Shown: one piece after another, positions 7,159 to 15,388 of the stretch | Numbering within the stretch: the stretch's first letter is position 1 | How the letters are laid out: every line of letters starts with the position of its first letter | Source: Chitinophagaceae bacterium | GTDB taxonomy: Bacteria > Bacteroidota > Bacteroidia > Chitinophagales > Chitinophagaceae | NCBI GenBank assembly: GCA_022841365.1 | Contig: JALHRP010000002.1 | Coordinates: forward strand, 1-43,161 | DNA: 43,161 nucleotides | Direction: 5' to 3' | Made by a program: the position numbers and the translations under genes | Notes under the pieces: generated by a model | What the model was told of the DNA's origin: nothing | Seen by the model: only the letters and a program-made list of their open reading frames with translations | The model's database searches: none

Positions 7159-7165
7159 GAAAAAA

Positions 7166-7191
7166 CCCCGCCGCCCCTGTGGGGAACTTGG
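7166..7191 (+). repeat. Half-element relic in the nuoA-nuoB spacer
   Basis: CCCC...CCCCTGTGGGG followed by AACTTGG resembles the left hairpin of the composite spacer elements (compare the ACTTGG after the hairpin at 9594). No right-hand hairpin follows, and the spacer is only 80 bases. Confidence 0.45.
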
Positions 7192-7238
7192 ATACGGATG
7201 AAATAATATAAGTGCTCATTAAACGAGTTTGTAAAAAA

Positions 7239-8272: not shown

Positions 8273-8276
8273 AAGC

Positions 8277-8468
8277 CGGCCCCCTCTAACTCCCCCAAAG
8301 GGGGAGAATCACAGCACACCAGGCCAGCTTTTTGAAGAGTTTAAGTATTTGAATGATTATATAAAGATGAATAGATTTTTATTGCTGAAATGCTTAATTA
8401 CAAGCGAACATTAAAAAATAAAAAAGCCCGGCCTCCCTCTCTACGGGAGAGGGAACGAGGGTGAGGCT
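8277..8468 (+). repeat. Composite two-hairpin spacer element between nuoC and nuoD
   Basis: The left hairpin (CCCCCTCTAACTCCCCC / GGGGGAG) begins 4 bases after the nuoC stop and is followed by the GCACACCAGGCCAGCTT block. An AT-rich middle of about 95 bases contains GAAATGCTTAATTA. The right hairpin (8426-8468: GCCCGGCCTCCCTCTC, then GAGAGGG, then AACGAGGGTGAGGCT) ends directly at the nuoD ATG. It accounts for the whole spacer; there is no gene in it. Confidence 0.85.
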
Positions 8469-9593
8469 ATGTACAGAGAAACAGAAATATTACAGGAAGC
8501 AGTTGCCGGCGATCTCATCATTAATGTAGGTCCGCAACATCCATCTACACATGGCGTGTTGCATTTGGTAATTACATTAAATGGTGAAACCATAAAAAAG
8601 GTAGAACCGCATCTTGGTTATATTCATCGTTCCATTGAAAAAATGTGCGAAAGCTTAACCTTCCGCCAGTTTATTTATGTAACGAGTAAAATGGATTATC
8701 TCTCTTCACATATCAACAATCATGGTTGTTCTTTATGTGTAGAAAAAGGTTTGCAGATAGAAGTTCCCGAACGTGCACAGGTGATTCGTGTATTAATGGA
8801 TGAATTAACCAGACTTGCTTCGCATCAACTCTGGTGGGGAGCATTGGGTATGGATGTGGGAGCACTTACTCCTTTCTTTCATGCCTTTCGTGAACGTGAA
8901 CTGATCAACGATATTTTTGAAGAAACCTGTGGCACAAGGTTAACGATGAATTATATGGTGCCCGGCGGTGTTATGGCCGATCTGCATCCTAACTTTCAAC
9001 GCAGGGTGCATGAGTTCATCAAACAATTCAAACAAAAGTTTGATGAGTATGATGAATTGTTAACCGATAATATCATCTTTAAAAACAGAATGCAGGGTGT
9101 TGGTGTGTTATCTGCAGCAGATGCCGTTTCTTATGGATGTACCGGTCCTGTTGCAAGAGCCAGCGGCGTTTCATCCGACATACGCAAATTATATCCTTAC
9201 GAAATATATAACAAGCTGCAGTTTGATGAAGTAATTGAAACAGCAGGTGATTGTTATTCACGGTATATGGTGCGGATGAAAGAAATGCGTCAATCACTTT
9301 CTATTATTGAACAATTAATTGACCAGATTCCTGAAGGTGAGTATCAGGCAAAAACAAAAGCCGTATTAAAATTACCAAAGGGCGAATACTACAGTCGTGT
9401 TGAAACAGCACGTGGTGAGTTTGGTGTTTATATTGTAAGTGAAGGCGGAACAACGCCGTACAGAATCAAATTCCGTTCACCCGGTTTTAGTAATTTAAGT
9501 GCGTTGGATCATATGGCAAGAGGTGGAAAGATTGGAGATTTGGTGGCCATCATGGGATCACTTGATTTAGTGATACCTGATATTGACAGATAG
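8469..9593 (+). CDS. nuoD: NADH-quinone oxidoreductase subunit D
   Basis: Peripheral-arm (49 kDa-type) subunit that forms the quinone cavity with NuoB. The 374-residue product starts close to the conserved PQHPSTHGVLHLV motif, contains CSLCVEKG, and ends in the family's terminal LDLVIPDIDR. It is slightly short because the N-terminal extension is brief. The start codon abuts the repeat element. In fourteen-gene nuo operons nuoE, nuoF and nuoG normally follow; here nuoH follows after a repeat spacer. Confidence 0.97.
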   Translation: MYRETEILQEAVAGDLIINVGPQHPSTHGVLHLVITLNGETIKKVEPHLGYIHRSIEKMCESLTFRQFIYVTSKMDYLSSHINNHGCSLCVEKGLQIEVPERAQVIRVLMDELTRLASHQLWWGALGMDVGALTPFFHAFRERELINDIFEETCGTRLTMNYMVPGGVMADLHPNFQRRVHEFIKQFKQKFDEYDELLTDNIIFKNRMQGVGVLSAADAVSYGCTGPVARASGVSSDIRKLYPYEIYNKLQFDEVIETAGDCYSRYMVRMKEMRQSLSIIEQLIDQIPEGEYQAKTKAVLKLPKGEYYSRVETARGEFGVYIVSEGGTTPYRIKFRSPGFSNLSALDHMARGGKIGDLVAIMGSLDLVIPDIDR

Positions 9594-9782
9594 GCCCCTC
9601 TAAATCTCCCCGGAAGGGAGACTTGGCAAGGCACAAGGCCAGCTTATTTAAGCTATAGTTGATTGGCAAATGATTGATGATATAAGATGAAATGCTGAAA
9701 CGTAGAATAGTAAAGTAAAATTCATAAAAACAAAGCCCGGCCTCCCTCTCTTTTGGAGAGGGATTGAGGGTGAGGTCTAAGA
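9594..9782 (+). repeat. Composite spacer element between nuoD and nuoH, at the site of the missing nuoEFG
   Basis: The left hairpin (CCCCTCTAAATCTCCCC, GGAAGGGAG, ACTTGG, then GGCACAAGGCCAGCTT) starts immediately after the nuoD stop. The right hairpin (9735-9778, ending TTGAGGGTGAGGTCT) ends 4 bases before the nuoH ATG. The middle includes GATGAAATGCTGAAA, related to the nuoC-nuoD and nuoK-nuoL copies. No remains of nuoE, nuoF or nuoG are recognisable. Confidence 0.85.
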
Positions 9783-10859
9783 ATGCCCAGTTTAGAAAAC
9801 ATAACCGATGATCTTGATGTATGGTTGTACCAGCAGTTTGGTGCAACAGCAACGTTCCTTATTGAAAGTGTACTCATTGCACTTTTAGCTATTGGTTTGT
9901 TTTCCATTCTTGGATTGGTGTTGATCATGATGGAGCGAAAAGTATCGGCTTATATGCAGGTGCGTTTAGGACCCAACCGTGTTGGGCCCAAAGGAATGTT
10001 CCAGACTGTTGCTGATACTTTAAAGCTGATTGTAAAAGAAGGAATGACGCCCGATGGTGCAGATAAGTTTCTTTTTAATCTTGCGCCGTTTATTGTTATG
10101 ATCATTGCCATGGTGATTCTTGCACCGCTTGCTTTCTCCAAAGGTTTTCAGATATGGGATATAAATATTGGTGTATTATTTATTACAGCGGTTTCTTCAG
10201 TAAGTGTGATTGGTATTTTAATGGCGGGATGGGCCAGCAACAATAAATATTCGTTGTTGGGTGCTATGCGCAGCGGTGCACAGATCGTAAGCTATGAGTT
10301 AAGTGCAGGTCTGTCTGTGATTGCTATTGTAGTATTAACAGGTAGTTTACGCATGTCGGATATTGTTGCTTCTCAGGAAAATGGCTGGTGGTTATTTAAA
10401 GGACATATCCCTGTGCTGATTGCCTTTGTGATTTTTATTATTGCTATCACTGCCGAAACTAACCGTGCCCCATTTGATCTGGCAGAAGCGGAAAGTGAAT
10501 TAACAGCGGGCTTTCATACAGAATACTCAGGAATGAAATTCGCCTTGTTCTTCCTGGCTGAGTACGTGAATATTTTTATTGTATGTGCAGTTGGTGCTAC
10601 ATTATTTTTAGGTGGATGGATGCCTCTGCATTTTGGAACGAATACGCAGTTTAATCATGTAATGGATTATATACCCGGCATAGTGTGGTTTATGGGTAAG
10701 ACGTTCTTTTTAATTTTTGTGATCATGTGGTTCAGGTGGACCTTCCCCCGGCTCCGTATTGATCAGTTGCTGAATCTTGAATGGAAATATTTATTACCCA
10801 TCAGTTTATTTAATTTATTACTGGTTACGTTGATGGCAATTATGGGGTGGCATTTTTAG
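9783..10859 (+). CDS. nuoH: NADH-quinone oxidoreductase subunit H
   Basis: Membrane subunit that joins the peripheral and membrane arms and lines the quinone tunnel. The 358-residue product has about eight hydrophobic helices and the signatures MQVRLGPNRVGPKG and ETNRAPFDLAEAESELTAGF, with the conserved acidic residues of the loop facing NuoD and NuoB. Flanked on both sides by composite repeat elements. Confidence 0.97.
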   Translation: MPSLENITDDLDVWLYQQFGATATFLIESVLIALLAIGLFSILGLVLIMMERKVSAYMQVRLGPNRVGPKGMFQTVADTLKLIVKEGMTPDGADKFLFNLAPFIVMIIAMVILAPLAFSKGFQIWDINIGVLFITAVSSVSVIGILMAGWASNNKYSLLGAMRSGAQIVSYELSAGLSVIAIVVLTGSLRMSDIVASQENGWWLFKGHIPVLIAFVIFIIAITAETNRAPFDLAEAESELTAGFHTEYSGMKFALFFLAEYVNIFIVCAVGATLFLGGWMPLHFGTNTQFNHVMDYIPGIVWFMGKTFFLIFVIMWFRWTFPRLRIDQLLNLEWKYLLPISLFNLLLVTLMAIMGWHF

Positions 10860-10866
10860 AGGCCAG

Positions 10867-11053
10867 AAGCCCCCTCTAACTCCCCCGGTAGGGGAGAATT
10901 TCAACGCACAGGGCCAGCTTGTCAAAGAGTATATTGAATTGATAAAAGTTTGATGAAGAGAATGAAAAAGATGAAAAGTCTATTTACAATTGTTGAACAA
11001 AAAAAATAAAGTCTGGTTTCCCCTCTTGGGAGGGGTGCAGGTGTGGGTTGCTT
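10867..11053 (+). repeat. Composite spacer element between nuoH and nuoI
   Basis: The left hairpin (CCCCCTCTAACTCCCCC, GGTAGGGGAG) starts 8 bases after the nuoH stop and is followed by GCACAGGGCCAGCTTGT. The right hairpin (11011-11050: GGTTTCCCCTC, TTGGGAGGGG, TGCAGGTGTGGG) is the most divergent right half, but it has the same place, ending 3 bases before the nuoI ATG. Confidence 0.8.
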
Positions 11054-11533
11054 ATGTTTTTAAAAGAATACATAAAAGAAGTATTTGGTGCGGTAAAGTC
11101 GCTGGCAACAGGTATGCGCCGGACCGGTTATTATTTTACACACCATAAAGAAATCATTACACAACAGTATCCTGATAACAGAGATACGTTGCAGTTACCT
11201 GAACGTTTCAGAGGTGAGGTAGTAATGATTCATGATGAAAACAATGAGCATGCCTGCACCGGTTGTACTGCCTGTGAGCTGGCATGTCCTAACGCAACCA
11301 TCAAGATTGTAACCAAGTTTGATGTTGATGAAGAAACAGGCAAGAAGAAAAAAGCCATTGACACATTTGTGTATCATCTGGAGCTCTGTACGTTTTGCAA
11401 TTTGTGTATTGAAGCTTGTCCAACCGGCGCCATTAAAATGGATCAGACATTTGAACATAGTGTGTTTGACAGAAGTAAGCTGACGAAGAAATTGAATCAT
11501 GATGGATCGAAGATCAGGGCGGGCGTGGAATAA
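11054..11533 (+). CDS. nuoI: NADH-quinone oxidoreductase subunit I
   Basis: Ferredoxin-like subunit carrying two [4Fe-4S] clusters (N6a, N6b) that pass electrons to NuoB. The 159-residue product has two CxxCxxCxxxCP motifs, with Cys68/71/74/78 (CTGCTACELACP) and Cys112/115/118/122 (CTFCNLCIEACP). The ATG at 11054 is chosen over an in-frame TTG two codons earlier. In the absence of NuoEFG from this operon, NuoI would be the outermost cluster-bearing subunit encoded here. Confidence 0.96.
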   Translation: MFLKEYIKEVFGAVKSLATGMRRTGYYFTHHKEIITQQYPDNRDTLQLPERFRGEVVMIHDENNEHACTGCTACELACPNATIKIVTKFDVDEETGKKKKAIDTFVYHLELCTFCNLCIEACPTGAIKMDQTFEHSVFDRSKLTKKLNHDGSKIRAGVE

Positions 11534-11537
11534 GGGA

Positions 11538-11760
11538 GGCCCCCTCTAACTCCCCCGGAGGGGGAGAATGTCTTTGCACAAGGGCCAACTTGTTAAACAG
11601 ATTGACTAGAAATAAAGCTGTTATTAATTGATGAATAAACAGAAAATGTTGAAATGCCCGCCTGAATGAATAATTCGGGCAGGCCTAATTACAAAAGATA
11701 ACTAATAAAATAAAGCCCGGCCTCCCTCTCTACCGGAGAGGGAACGAGGGTGAGGCTATT
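11538..11760 (+). repeat. Composite spacer element between nuoI and nuoJ, with a nested palindrome
   Basis: The left hairpin (CCCCCTCTAACTCCCCC, GGAGGGGGAG) starts 4 bases after the stop and the right hairpin (11715-11757) ends 3 bases before the nuoJ ATG. The middle is longer than in the sister copies because a second palindrome (11656-11684) interrupts the GAAATGC / CTAATTACA stretch that is continuous in the nuoC-nuoD copy. Confidence 0.85.
11656..11684. repeat. Short palindrome nested in the nuoI-nuoJ element
   Basis: GCCCGCCTGAAT pairs with ATTCGGGCAGGC around a 5-base loop, allowing two wobble pairs. Comparison with 8390-8402, where GAAATGCTTAATTACA is uninterrupted, shows that it was inserted into an existing spacer element. 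Confidence 0.7.
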
Positions 11761-12276
11761 ATGACTGCATCACAAATCATATTTTATATTCTTTCTGCCT
11801 TTATTCTTGGCATGGGCATCCTGTCTGTTACCAGCAGGAAGATCTTTCGTTCTGCCATTTGGTTGTTGTTTTCACTTATAGGCATTGCAGGCTTATACTT
11901 CTGGATGGAAGTTGAGTTTATTGCAGCCGTTCAGATTGTGGTGTATGTGGGAGGTATTGTAGTCCTCATTATTTTTTCCATCTTCCTTACACAGCAATCG
12001 GGAAAGGAAATGCAAAAAGCACCATTGATGCGCAAGATTGCAGGTGCGTTGGCAGTTGTATTCGGCTTCGCATTTACCTATATGCTTATTGACCGCTATG
12101 GATTTAAACCAAAGTCAGTAGTATTTGATAATAGTGTTGCAAGAATAGGCAATGCCATGCTCAATACAGAACAGGGCGGCTTTTCACTTCCTTTTGAAGT
12201 AGTGAGTATTTTATTACTGGCTGCCATGATCGGTTGTATTGTAATTGCACTAAAGATAAAACCAACAGAACAATGA
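11761..12276 (+). CDS. nuoJ: NADH-quinone oxidoreductase subunit J
   Basis: Membrane-arm subunit (ND6-type). The 171-residue product has five hydrophobic segments. The family motif YVGGIVVLIIFSIFL, containing the pi-bulge helix region, is near residue 62. The last bases overlap the nuoK start (ATGA), indicating translational coupling. Confidence 0.95.
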   Translation: MTASQIIFYILSAFILGMGILSVTSRKIFRSAIWLLFSLIGIAGLYFWMEVEFIAAVQIVVYVGGIVVLIIFSIFLTQQSGKEMQKAPLMRKIAGALAVVFGFAFTYMLIDRYGFKPKSVVFDNSVARIGNAMLNTEQGGFSLPFEVVSILLLAAMIGCIVIALKIKPTEQ

Positions 12277-12587
12277 GCGAAGTACCCATCAGTCATATTT
12301 TATTTGTAAGCACAGCCTTATTTTTCATCGGCATGTATGGATTGTTCACACGTCGGAACATGATCACCATGCTCATGTCCATTGAATTAATGCTGAACAG
12401 CGTTAACATCAACTTTGTAACGTTCAATAAATATTTATATCCTGAGAAATTAGACGGCATCTTCTTTACCATCTTTATTATTACGATTGCAGCTGCAGAA
12501 GCAGCCGTAGCGATTGCCATTATCATCAATCTCTACCGCAGTCATAAATCCATTGATGTAGAAGATGCAACGGAAATGAAATATTAA
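12273..12587 (+). CDS. nuoK: NADH-quinone oxidoreductase subunit K
   Basis: Membrane-arm subunit (ND4L-type) of the proton pathway. The 104-residue product has three helices with the conserved glutamates in LMSIELMLNSVNINFV and in TIAAAEAAVAIAI. The ATG at 12273 overlaps the nuoJ stop by four bases; a frame from 12234 would start inside nuoJ and lacks family similarity in its extra part. Confidence 0.96.
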   Translation: MSEVPISHILFVSTALFFIGMYGLFTRRNMITMLMSIELMLNSVNINFVTFNKYLYPEKLDGIFFTIFIITIAAAEAAVAIAIIINLYRSHKSIDVEDATEMKY

Positions 12588-12589
12588 GA

Positions 12590-12859
12590 AGCCCCCTCTA
12601 ACTCCCCCGGAGGGGGAGAATGGCAGAGCACAAAGCCAACTTGATGAAAAAGTTGATAAATAATAAACGGTTCGTTGATTAAAAATAAAAAGATGAAATG
12701 CTTAATTAATAAAGATAAATCAGTTGACAAAGTTTGGCCTCCCTCTCTACGGGAGAGGGAACGAGGGAGAGGCCGACACGTGTAAAAACTATTGCTCAAT
12801 AAAAAAATAAATGCCCGGCCTCTCCCGAAACTTCGGGAGAACGAGGGTGAGGCCTTTAT
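12590..12859 (+). repeat. Composite spacer element between nuoK and nuoL with two right-hand hairpins
   Basis: The left hairpin (CCCCCTCTAACTCCCCC, GGAGGGGGAG, then GCACAAAGCCAACTT) starts 2 bases after the nuoK stop. The middle carries GATGAAATGCTTAATTA as in the nuoC-nuoD copy. Two right hairpins follow, at 12736-12774 (GGCCTCCCTCTC, GAGAGGG, AACGAGGGAGAGGCC) and 12813-12854 (TCTCCCGAA, TTCGGGAGA, ACGAGGGTGAGGCC). Only the second is beside the nuoL ATG, 5 bases away. Confidence 0.85.
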
Positions 12860-14863: not shown

Positions 14864-15388
14864 AGCTCCGTAGGAGCGATATGTAAACAATAAGCTGATG
14901 CCCAACACATATTCTCAGATATACATTCAGATTGTGTTTGCTGTAAAAGGCAGGGAGCATTTTATTAAAGAAACATTCAGAGAGGAATTACAAAAGTATA
15001 CGACGGGTATTATAAACAATAAGAAGCAAAAATTATACGCCATCTATTGCATGCCGGATCATTCCCATTTGTTTGTCAGTATGAAGCCCGATTTATCTAT
15101 ATCAGACTTAACAAGAGATATTAAATCAAATACTTCTTCATTTCTGAAAGACAAAAAATTTGTTTCGGAGTCATTTAGCTGGCAGGAAGGGTTTGGGGCT
15201 TTCAGCTATTCAAAATCGCAGGCACCTACTGTTGTAAACTATATTGTGAATCAGCCTGAACATCATAAGAGAAAAACCTTCCAACAGGAATATCTTGAAT
15301 TTCTGGAAAAATTTGAAATTGATTACAACCCAAAATATCTATTCGAATTCTATGATTGACAAATTCAACATATCGCTCCTACGGAGCT
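14864..15388 (+). mobile_element. REP-associated transposase unit between nuoL and nuoM
   Basis: A 21-bp sequence at 14864-14884 (starting AGCTCCGTAGGAGCG) recurs as a perfect inverted copy at 15368-15388 (ending CTCCTACGGAGCT). Each end contains its own hairpin, GCTCC-GTA-GGAGC. Between them lies only the transposase gene 14898-15359. This fits a REP/RAYT unit: a Y1 transposase flanked by REP-like hairpins. It points in the direction of the operon and replaces the composite spacer element expected here. Confidence 0.75.
14898..15359 (+). CDS. REP-associated / IS200-like tyrosine transposase
   Basis: A 153-residue protein of the Y1 transposase family (PF01797), single-strand DNA endonucleases that cleave at hairpin-marked sites through a covalent tyrosine link. 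The metal-binding HUH motif is in MPDHSHLFVSM, and a tyrosine in the YSKSQAPTVVNYIVNQ region fits the catalytic helix. The beginning, MPNTYSQIYIQIVFAVKGRE, is typical of the family. It appears intact. Flanking inverted hairpins at 14864 and 15368 support a RAYT. Its reading direction would let nuoM and nuoN transcription pass through it. Confidence 0.9.
   Translation: MPNTYSQIYIQIVFAVKGREHFIKETFREELQKYTTGIINNKKQKLYAIYCMPDHSHLFVSMKPDLSISDLTRDIKSNTSSFLKDKKFVSESFSWQEGFGAFSYSKSQAPTVVNYIVNQPEHHKRKTFQQEYLEFLEKFEIDYNPKYLFEFYD

Follow-up and report, generated by a model that had tools for sequence, protein, structure and literature searches.

Two-hairpin repeat cassettes at gene junctions in Chitinophagaceae: a probably mobile family with a supported tie to DUF559 elements

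Repetitive extragenic palindromes (REPs) of the GTAG/CGTC type are described in PMC3733652 as high-copy intergenic palindromes. Between co-directional genes they lie near the 3' end of the upstream open reading frame (ORF), at variable distance from the downstream ORF; REP termini often provide a TAG stop codon, and some REPs lie inside ORFs. BOX elements of Streptococcus pneumoniae, as presented in PMC3049150, are modular composites with outer modules around a variable middle; they vary between strains and lie at operon borders, are over-represented between convergent genes, and show a gradual decay of distance to genes. Rickettsia palindromic elements (RPE), as cited in PMC3733652, are palindromes within protein-coding genes. 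Searches of an open-licence library yielded no publication on the repeats considered here: two-hairpin cassettes that fill five spacers of the complex I (nuo) operon in a 43,161-nt stretch of DNA (the window) from a Chitinophagaceae bacterium. The window is contig 2 of the draft genome G000 (4.56 Mb, 326 contigs, 4.09% listed contamination), and its nuoD is closest, at 93%, to that of a Chitinophagaceae metagenome genome. Operon genes A-D and H-M match NCBIfam models of NADH-quinone oxidoreductase subunits, several below the curated cut-off.

The best account, with a probability of about two in three, is that these cassettes belong to a Chitinophagaceae family of small, modular, mobile repeats of a BIME/BOX-like kind, related to elements that encode DUF559 proteins and tolerated at gene junctions. 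The family is composite, biased in orientation, locked to stop codons, and turned over between relatives. Presence/absence turnover, together with ends common to cassettes and DUF559 elements, argues for a mobile repeat rather than a device built into the operon.

All five spacers hold a two-hairpin cassette, as the initial annotation had described, and range from 189 to 272 nt: C-D, 8273-8468 (196 nt); D-H, 9594-9782 (189 nt); H-I, 10860-11053 (194 nt); I-J, 11534-11760 (227 nt); and K-L, 12588-12859 (272 nt). Every cassette runs in operon orientation, and the family measures about 180-270 bp. The layout consists of a left GC hairpin, mostly CCCCCTCTAACTCCCCC..GGGGGAG; a GCACAAGGCCAGCTT-like block; an AT-rich middle; and a right GC hairpin. 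The left unit (L) comprises the first hairpin and the GCACAAGGCCAGCTT-like block, the right unit (R) an AT-rich stretch with GAAATGCTTAATTAC and the second hairpin. Two models, R1 for L and R2 for R, were built on 34 copies of L and 24 of R taken from this and related genomes (six rows contain typing errors). On the plus strand they delimit the cassettes as follows: C-D, 8278-8468 (L 8278-8338, 72.8 bits; R 8387-8468, 90.5 bits); D-H, 9593-9777 (L 9593-9653, 64.1 bits; R 9697-9777, 79.1 bits); H-I, 10868-11049 (L 10868-10928, 77 bits; R 10973-11049, a variant stem, 54.4 bits); I-J, 11538-11757 (L 11538-11599, 70.1 bits; R 11678-11757, 85.3 bits); and K-L, 12590-12854 (L 12590-12650, 75.4 bits; R 12695-12774 and 12775-12854, 83.8 and 78.6 bits).

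By these model coordinates, and in the same order, L starts 5, 0, 8, 4, and 2 nt after the stop codon, and R ends 0, 5, 4, 3, and 5 nt before the ATG, which agrees with the first proposal of 0-8 and 0-5 nt; at D-H, the L model overlaps the final base of the stop codon. The notion of one element per spacer stands for the five cassettes with two refinements: K-L contains two R units in tandem, and I-J contains a third palindrome (about 11657-11684) inside a GAAATG/CTTAATTA motif; G004, G009, and G012 have a similar palindrome at that motif (by eye). The motif GAAATGCTTAATTA, which opens R at 8387-8400 and again at 12695-12708 (plus strand, exact pattern match), is exact in only C-D and K-L among the five spacers. 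Direct-repeat families of 65-74 nt recur across the spacers, and each model picks up dozens of genome copies, these included; the likeness therefore goes beyond chance. The cassette ends are hairpins that are only loosely inverted relative to one another (by eye). Elsewhere in the operon, the A-B spacer (7159-7238) has a degenerate hairpin alone, read in the sequence as an L-like structure after the nuoA stop (7165-7190, plus strand) and below R1 calling; B-C is 14 nt, J-K a 4-nt overlap, and M-N 9 nt.

Model searches at E<=0.01 find at least 81 L and at least 46 R copies in G000, lower bounds because the best 150 of 872 (L) and of 5067 (R) candidates were scored. Sixty of the 81 L lie outside called genes and 21 inside one. 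Within 400 nt downstream, an R on the same strand follows 23 of the 81 L, at a gap of 39-57 nt in 17 of these 23; no R lies on the opposite strand, or upstream on either strand, within 400 nt of any of the 81. This bears out the earlier claim of a composite element, which proves to be oriented; the opposite outcome, independent halves placed at random, did not occur. Among 37 further intergenic L that lack a modelled R, a second GC hairpin (stem >=7) occurs within 200 nt in 15 (0.1 in shuffles), and no second strong hairpin in the other 22. Ten of the 15 hairpins are of one type (ACCG.. stem ..GGAG/GGG..), eight of which sit 91-96 nt behind L. An upstream GC hairpin accompanies four of 20 R without a modelled L, and none is present in 16. 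The composite is thus common, yet single or decayed halves exist.

The arrangement is not confined to the nuo operon: cassettes occupy many other gene junctions of the genome. One lies in the window at 320-517 on the minus strand (low end approximate), with L at 458-517 (38.1 bits by R1) followed, 94 nt behind it, by a type-B right hairpin. Near the start of the window, positions 284-405 and 566-687 are direct 122-nt copies, 84% alike, that flank a minus-strand L unit. The top-scoring L copy of the genome (G000:C6:54497-54557) lies directly upstream of a distant nuoI paralogue (31% identical). R hairpin loops also host other palindromes, repeats within repeats, at L199 12151-12261 and L224 12463-12564, one with CGTCATTGCGA.

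Relatives differ widely in their content. Across 39 genomes including G000 (R1, E<=0.001, at most 139 candidates scored per genome), L matches occur in 12: at least 74 in G000, at least 78 in G012, at least 90 in G009, at least 35 in G004, at least 18 in G017, and 1-7 in seven others. Within the genus (14 genomes, counting G000), the number of L copies runs from 0 up to 90. Cassettes are present at nuo junctions in G000, G012, and G009, which group together in the nuo tree, and variable in G004, G001, and G010, of which G004 stands beside G010. G003 and G007 have a cassette at none of the five junctions; their spacers are 3 nt (C-D), 9 nt (H-I), 28 nt (I-J), and 3 nt (K-L), with D-H at 79 and 70 nt. 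G013 lacks cassettes at C-D, H-I, I-J, and K-L, where its spacers are just as short, and its D-H spacer of 545 nt holds another ORF and a stretch resembling a decayed L block. Even the sisters G004 and G010, 94% identical in nuo, show differences at D-H, I-J, and K-L, and their H-I cassettes are not the same.

The sequence of empty spacers is often untraceable in filled nuo junctions (by eye). In G012, an L unit with its surroundings lies across the former J-K overlap, replacing the last nuoJ and first nuoK codons, and J-K is replaced near the nuoJ end in G009 as well. Comparison of G004, G010, and G001 shows identity falling locally to 0.78 towards the end of nuoI and to 0.85 towards that of nuoD, without a drop across the junction, so no co-conversion tract is claimed at these nuo cassettes. 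The cassette itself is probably mobile as DNA.

Placement was measured against genes called by a home-made codon-score script on 333 kb of stretches, with two nuo starts hand-corrected. Among the 35 L of at least 50 bits, 32 lie outside genes and three inside. The upstream neighbour of those 32 is a same-strand gene in 27 cases, an opposite-strand gene in four, and no gene in one. Behind a same-strand gene, L starts -12 to +11 nt from the end of the stop codon in 25 of 27; the remaining two are at -34 and at 1411, a script artefact from C7:13962, where the called gene traverses L and stops 8 nt beyond. At a distance of -12, a TAA within L (in CTCTAA) is itself the stop codon of the upstream gene. 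Weaker L (35-50 bits, n=27) have a same-strand gene upstream in 16 cases, with 12 at -12 to +11, two at -34, and one each at 182 and 245. R faces a same-strand downstream gene in 39 of 46 cases and an opposite-strand gene in seven. Its end lies 0-6 nt before the called start in 15 of the 39 and within 17 nt in 19; of the others, two are inside an ORF and the rest 25 to 362 nt away. For scale, the median same-direction spacer without L or R matches is 87 nt (n=129).

The left lock to the stop is therefore general and the right lock partial. Junction-exactness is a genome-wide property of the left end, whereas about one right end in two is tight. The suggestion that element boundaries track genes accordingly holds for the left end throughout (25 of 27 strong L) and for the right in 19 of 39 (<=17 nt). 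Likewise, the genome search that had been proposed, for ends at the stops and starts of co-directional genes, supports the orientation and the left end, and the right end in part.

The same picture emerges from 80 named nuo loci of the bacterial family (E<=0.1), where the operon strand carries 22 of the 25 L and all 18 R. The distance from L to the stop is listed for 20 of them: 18 fall at -2 to +6 nt and two, both at J-K, at -37. At the seven junctions in question, cassette-free spacers have median lengths of 18-73 nt. L is called at A-B in eight of 63 relative loci with a measurable junction. At nuoA-nuoB of L262, L264, L267, and L221, the cassette covers the nuoB start, with an ATG between the hairpins and the right hairpin in frame (by eye).

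Such locking could mean that the element actively targets the stop-codon region at the 3' end of a gene, beyond merely surviving there. The contrast between a locked left end and a broad right distance would fit, as would the 18 of 20 nuo distances at -2 to +6 set against spacer medians of 18-73 nt, and the replacement of J-K close to the nuoJ end in both G009 and G012. Yet neither a common target sequence (by eye) nor a duplication is seen at the ends, two of the 20 distances are -37, and DUF559-bearing members insert within genes. Furthermore, relatives' spacers that contain other repeats may inflate the ancestral size, since in G003, G007, and G013 the spacers measure 3 nt at K-L and 9 nt at H-I. 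Active targeting is therefore doubtful. In the preferred account of a tolerated mobile family, the junction position probably reflects tolerance rather than benefit.

Over 53 distinct copies of the right hairpin, 97.5% of cells pair, and compensatory changes are evident: both sides have changed in nine of 14 pairs, a count reached in 0 of 500 shuffles, on an alignment whose fit to the model somewhat favours pairing. In 42 R rows outside the model, there are 81 G-U, four A-C, and 14 other cells, which identifies the gene-sense strand as the folding strand. These features could instead betray a selected RNA device: the L hairpin would cap the 3' end of the upstream message; the R hairpin would shape the downstream 5' end; and the AT-rich middle would serve as a cleavage site, each cassette setting subunit-specific expression in the operon. 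Besides the compensatory changes and the G-U excess, the gene orientations speak for it (27 same-strand against four opposite-strand genes upstream of strong L, 39 against seven downstream of R; 22 of 25 L and all 18 R on the operon strand in the named nuo loci), and the right half of H-I is almost identical between the window and L198. Single-strand transposition likewise predicts same-strand folding, and this counts against the RNA device. So do the strong turnover (five junctions cassette-free in G003 and G007, four in G013), the unrelated palindromes with which other genomes of the genus fill the trpB/trpA junction (by eye), and the 21 of 81 L within called genes. A selected RNA role for the cassettes is, on balance, unlikely. 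Rfam gives no match above the gathering score in the window, and sigma-70-type promoter matches do not exceed shuffles (22 versus 26.8).

Far less plausible than an RNA device is that the cassettes act as intrinsic terminators or attenuators between genes. On the reverse strand, R does read as a hairpin with a T-rich run behind it, and four of the seven R that face an opposite-strand gene lie <=2 nt from its called stop. In the operon sense, though, no T run follows R, and scanner calls in the five spacers amount to one L (plus strand, I-J) and one R (minus strand, K-L).

What links the cassettes to a candidate source of mobility is a set of genes with similar ends. G000 contains seven DUF559 matches bordered by GC hairpins; five lie in open frames through the genes for chorismate synthase, adenine deaminase, acetate-CoA ligase, leucyl-tRNA synthetase, and methionine synthase, and two are intergenic (by eye). 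At L031, L032, L033, L034, and L036, all in G000, the in-frame DUF559 domains of housekeeping proteins have Pro/Gly/Ser-rich borders encoded by the hairpins. A same-strand scan (E<=0.1) of 32 of the genus's 36 DUF559 places finds L on the upstream border in six, R on the downstream border in 10 (four of these at E 0.01-0.1), and either in 12. L and DUF559 counts over the 14 genomes correlate (rho 0.68, p 0.007, no correction for phylogeny). Ends and kinds of site are common to the cassettes and some DUF559 genes. A DUF559 protein of G001 matches both Pfam DUF559 and a solved endonuclease-like protein, 3hrl.

Host sites recur between genomes: leuS (in G012 and G004 also), acs, aroC, and trpB/trpA. 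The trpB/trpA junction reads stop, hairpin, DUF559, R unit (60.3 bits), ATG in G002; in G003 stop, hairpin, DUF559, right hairpin, ATG, and G009 is alike after some 200 nt of other sequence. The spacer is 26-55 nt in G005, G006, G007, G008, and G011 (by eye), and the search gave no match in G004. G000 has a GC hairpin pair, the second within the trpA frame (by eye), and unrelated palindromes fill the junction equally neatly in G001, G010, and G012, as another repeat does in G013 (by eye). Over L317-L329 the contents of this junction thus vary within the genus among DUF559 element, hairpin pair, CCACAGAGGCACGG-type palindromes, another repeat, and short spacer. The DUF559 element of leuS occupies the position of a loop some five to eight residues long. 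Over 40 codons per side of this one locus, the flanks of the G004 insert are nearer to G000/G012 (0.92, 0.88) than to G010 (0.87, 0.78), whereas G010 is nearer to G004 in nine of 13 other leuS windows and G000 or G012 in four. A second leuS-like stretch, 68% identical, occurs in the G000 assembly at G000:C107:5298-5684.

Vsr-like homing endonuclease elements place a small nuclease gene in conserved genes, at the same host site in several genomes. A new free-standing homing-like class may tentatively be considered, in which a DUF559 endonuclease gene lies between palindromic ends and the nuo cassettes are gene-less derivatives. The DUF559 element would spread by cutting cognate alleles, into which it would then be copied; it would insert in frame into genes, with neither intein nor intron, and into operons exactly at stop and start. 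Gene-less cassettes would spread in trans, rewriting the ends of neighbouring proteins. No clean internal deletion of a DUF559 element has been found among the cassettes.

In the broader account of a tolerated mobile family, the cassettes are most probably its non-autonomous members, and the members that carry a gene encode, between similar ends, a protein of the DUF559 endonuclease type; DUF559 proteins might then mobilise the cassettes. Cassettes would enter or recombine into sites, replacing short sequence there, and would survive where the damage is smallest, at the stop/start junctions within compact operons or in frame in protein loops. The left end follows or supplies the stop, and the right end often halts just before, and sometimes just after, a usable ATG.

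Several observations weigh against this account. The 12 DUF559 loci with a modelled edge reduce to five host sites (leuS, acs, aroC, trpB/trpA, and adenine deaminase), and 20 of the 32 have neither L nor R at their edges at E<=0.1. A tblastn search of relatives' 80 nuo loci with six DUF559 domains of G000 finds no DUF559 gene. An orthologous junction that is occupied by a DUF559 element in G012 and G001, and in G000 by a cassette that lacks DUF559, speaks for the link, but the ends differ, so the cassette is no simple internal deletion. The longest word shared by the two flanks averages 4.04 nt over 23 pairs, against 4.03 when shuffled, and so indicates no target-site duplication. Orthologous cassette parts are more alike than 4-fold sites (0.91 versus 0.70 at H-I), which may reflect selected function. 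The placement distances depend on the home-made gene caller. Lastly, stop-locking compared with uniform insertion into relatives' spacers, which may contain other repeats, gives a joint P of 1e-6 over 15 events (four A-B cases merged to one, two J-K cases at -37 excluded). Stop-locking exceeds the uniform-insertion prediction, and tolerance alone may not suffice. By the same figure, random insertion into present-day spacers does not suffice for the stop-locking. The link between cassettes and DUF559 elements is supported but not proven.

An IS200-like Y1 transposase gene (14898-15359, plus strand; Pfam PF01797, E 7.5e-24), with palindromes nearby, occupies the nuoL-nuoM junction. Its presence raises a different possibility: L and R would be ordinary single REPs moved by such an enzyme, a REP-associated tyrosine transposase (RAYT), and the composite a chance pairing like that of bacterial interspersed mosaic elements (BIMEs). 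REP pairs and clusters of the BIME kind are documented, again in PMC3733652. But the palindromes by the window's Y1 gene, the one examined, are unlike L or R (by eye), the order of the pair is fixed, and R forms the right edge of some DUF559 elements. Chance pairing of ordinary REPs is accordingly improbable.

Three subjects that are usually studied separately meet in these cassettes: palindromic repeats that hug junctions, palindromes in frame within proteins, and DUF559, an orphan family of endonuclease type. Should the link be real, DUF559 would be the motor of a repeat family, and the Chitinophagaceae would offer natural replicates, the same junction with a cassette, an endonuclease element, another palindrome, or nearly empty, in which to ask what a two-hairpin insert does to an operon. 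The cassettes also show a way for mobile repeats to take over spacers and alter the ends of core proteins.

How, then, do the cassettes compare with the described systems? They differ from miniature inverted-repeat transposable elements (MITEs) of an insertion sequence in having no target-site duplication in the 23 pairs. Their presumed gene-carrying relatives resemble Vsr-like homing elements by analogy, but are bounded by palindromes; they show no intein or intron, although no search aimed at one was made. RPE lie within protein-coding genes; here, 60 of 81 L are outside genes, and some of the in-frame inserts carry an endonuclease-type gene. As in BOX, the cassettes are modular composites; unlike BOX, they are tied at the left end to the stop codon of a gene on the same strand. 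The halves resemble REPs and BIMEs as high-copy short palindromes, mostly intergenic (at least 81 L and at least 46 R). They differ in lacking a GTAG or CGTC tag in either consensus (by eye; a CGTC-like insert does lie in the R loop of L199), in combining two distinct half-elements in fixed order, and in ends common with some DUF559, not Y1, genes. The initial annotation knew of no paired, junction-exact arrangement, which was too strong a claim: stop-hugging REPs and modular BOX are both published (PMC3733652 and PMC3049150). Because those REPs already hug, and even supply, stop codons, the cassettes are a variant of something known.

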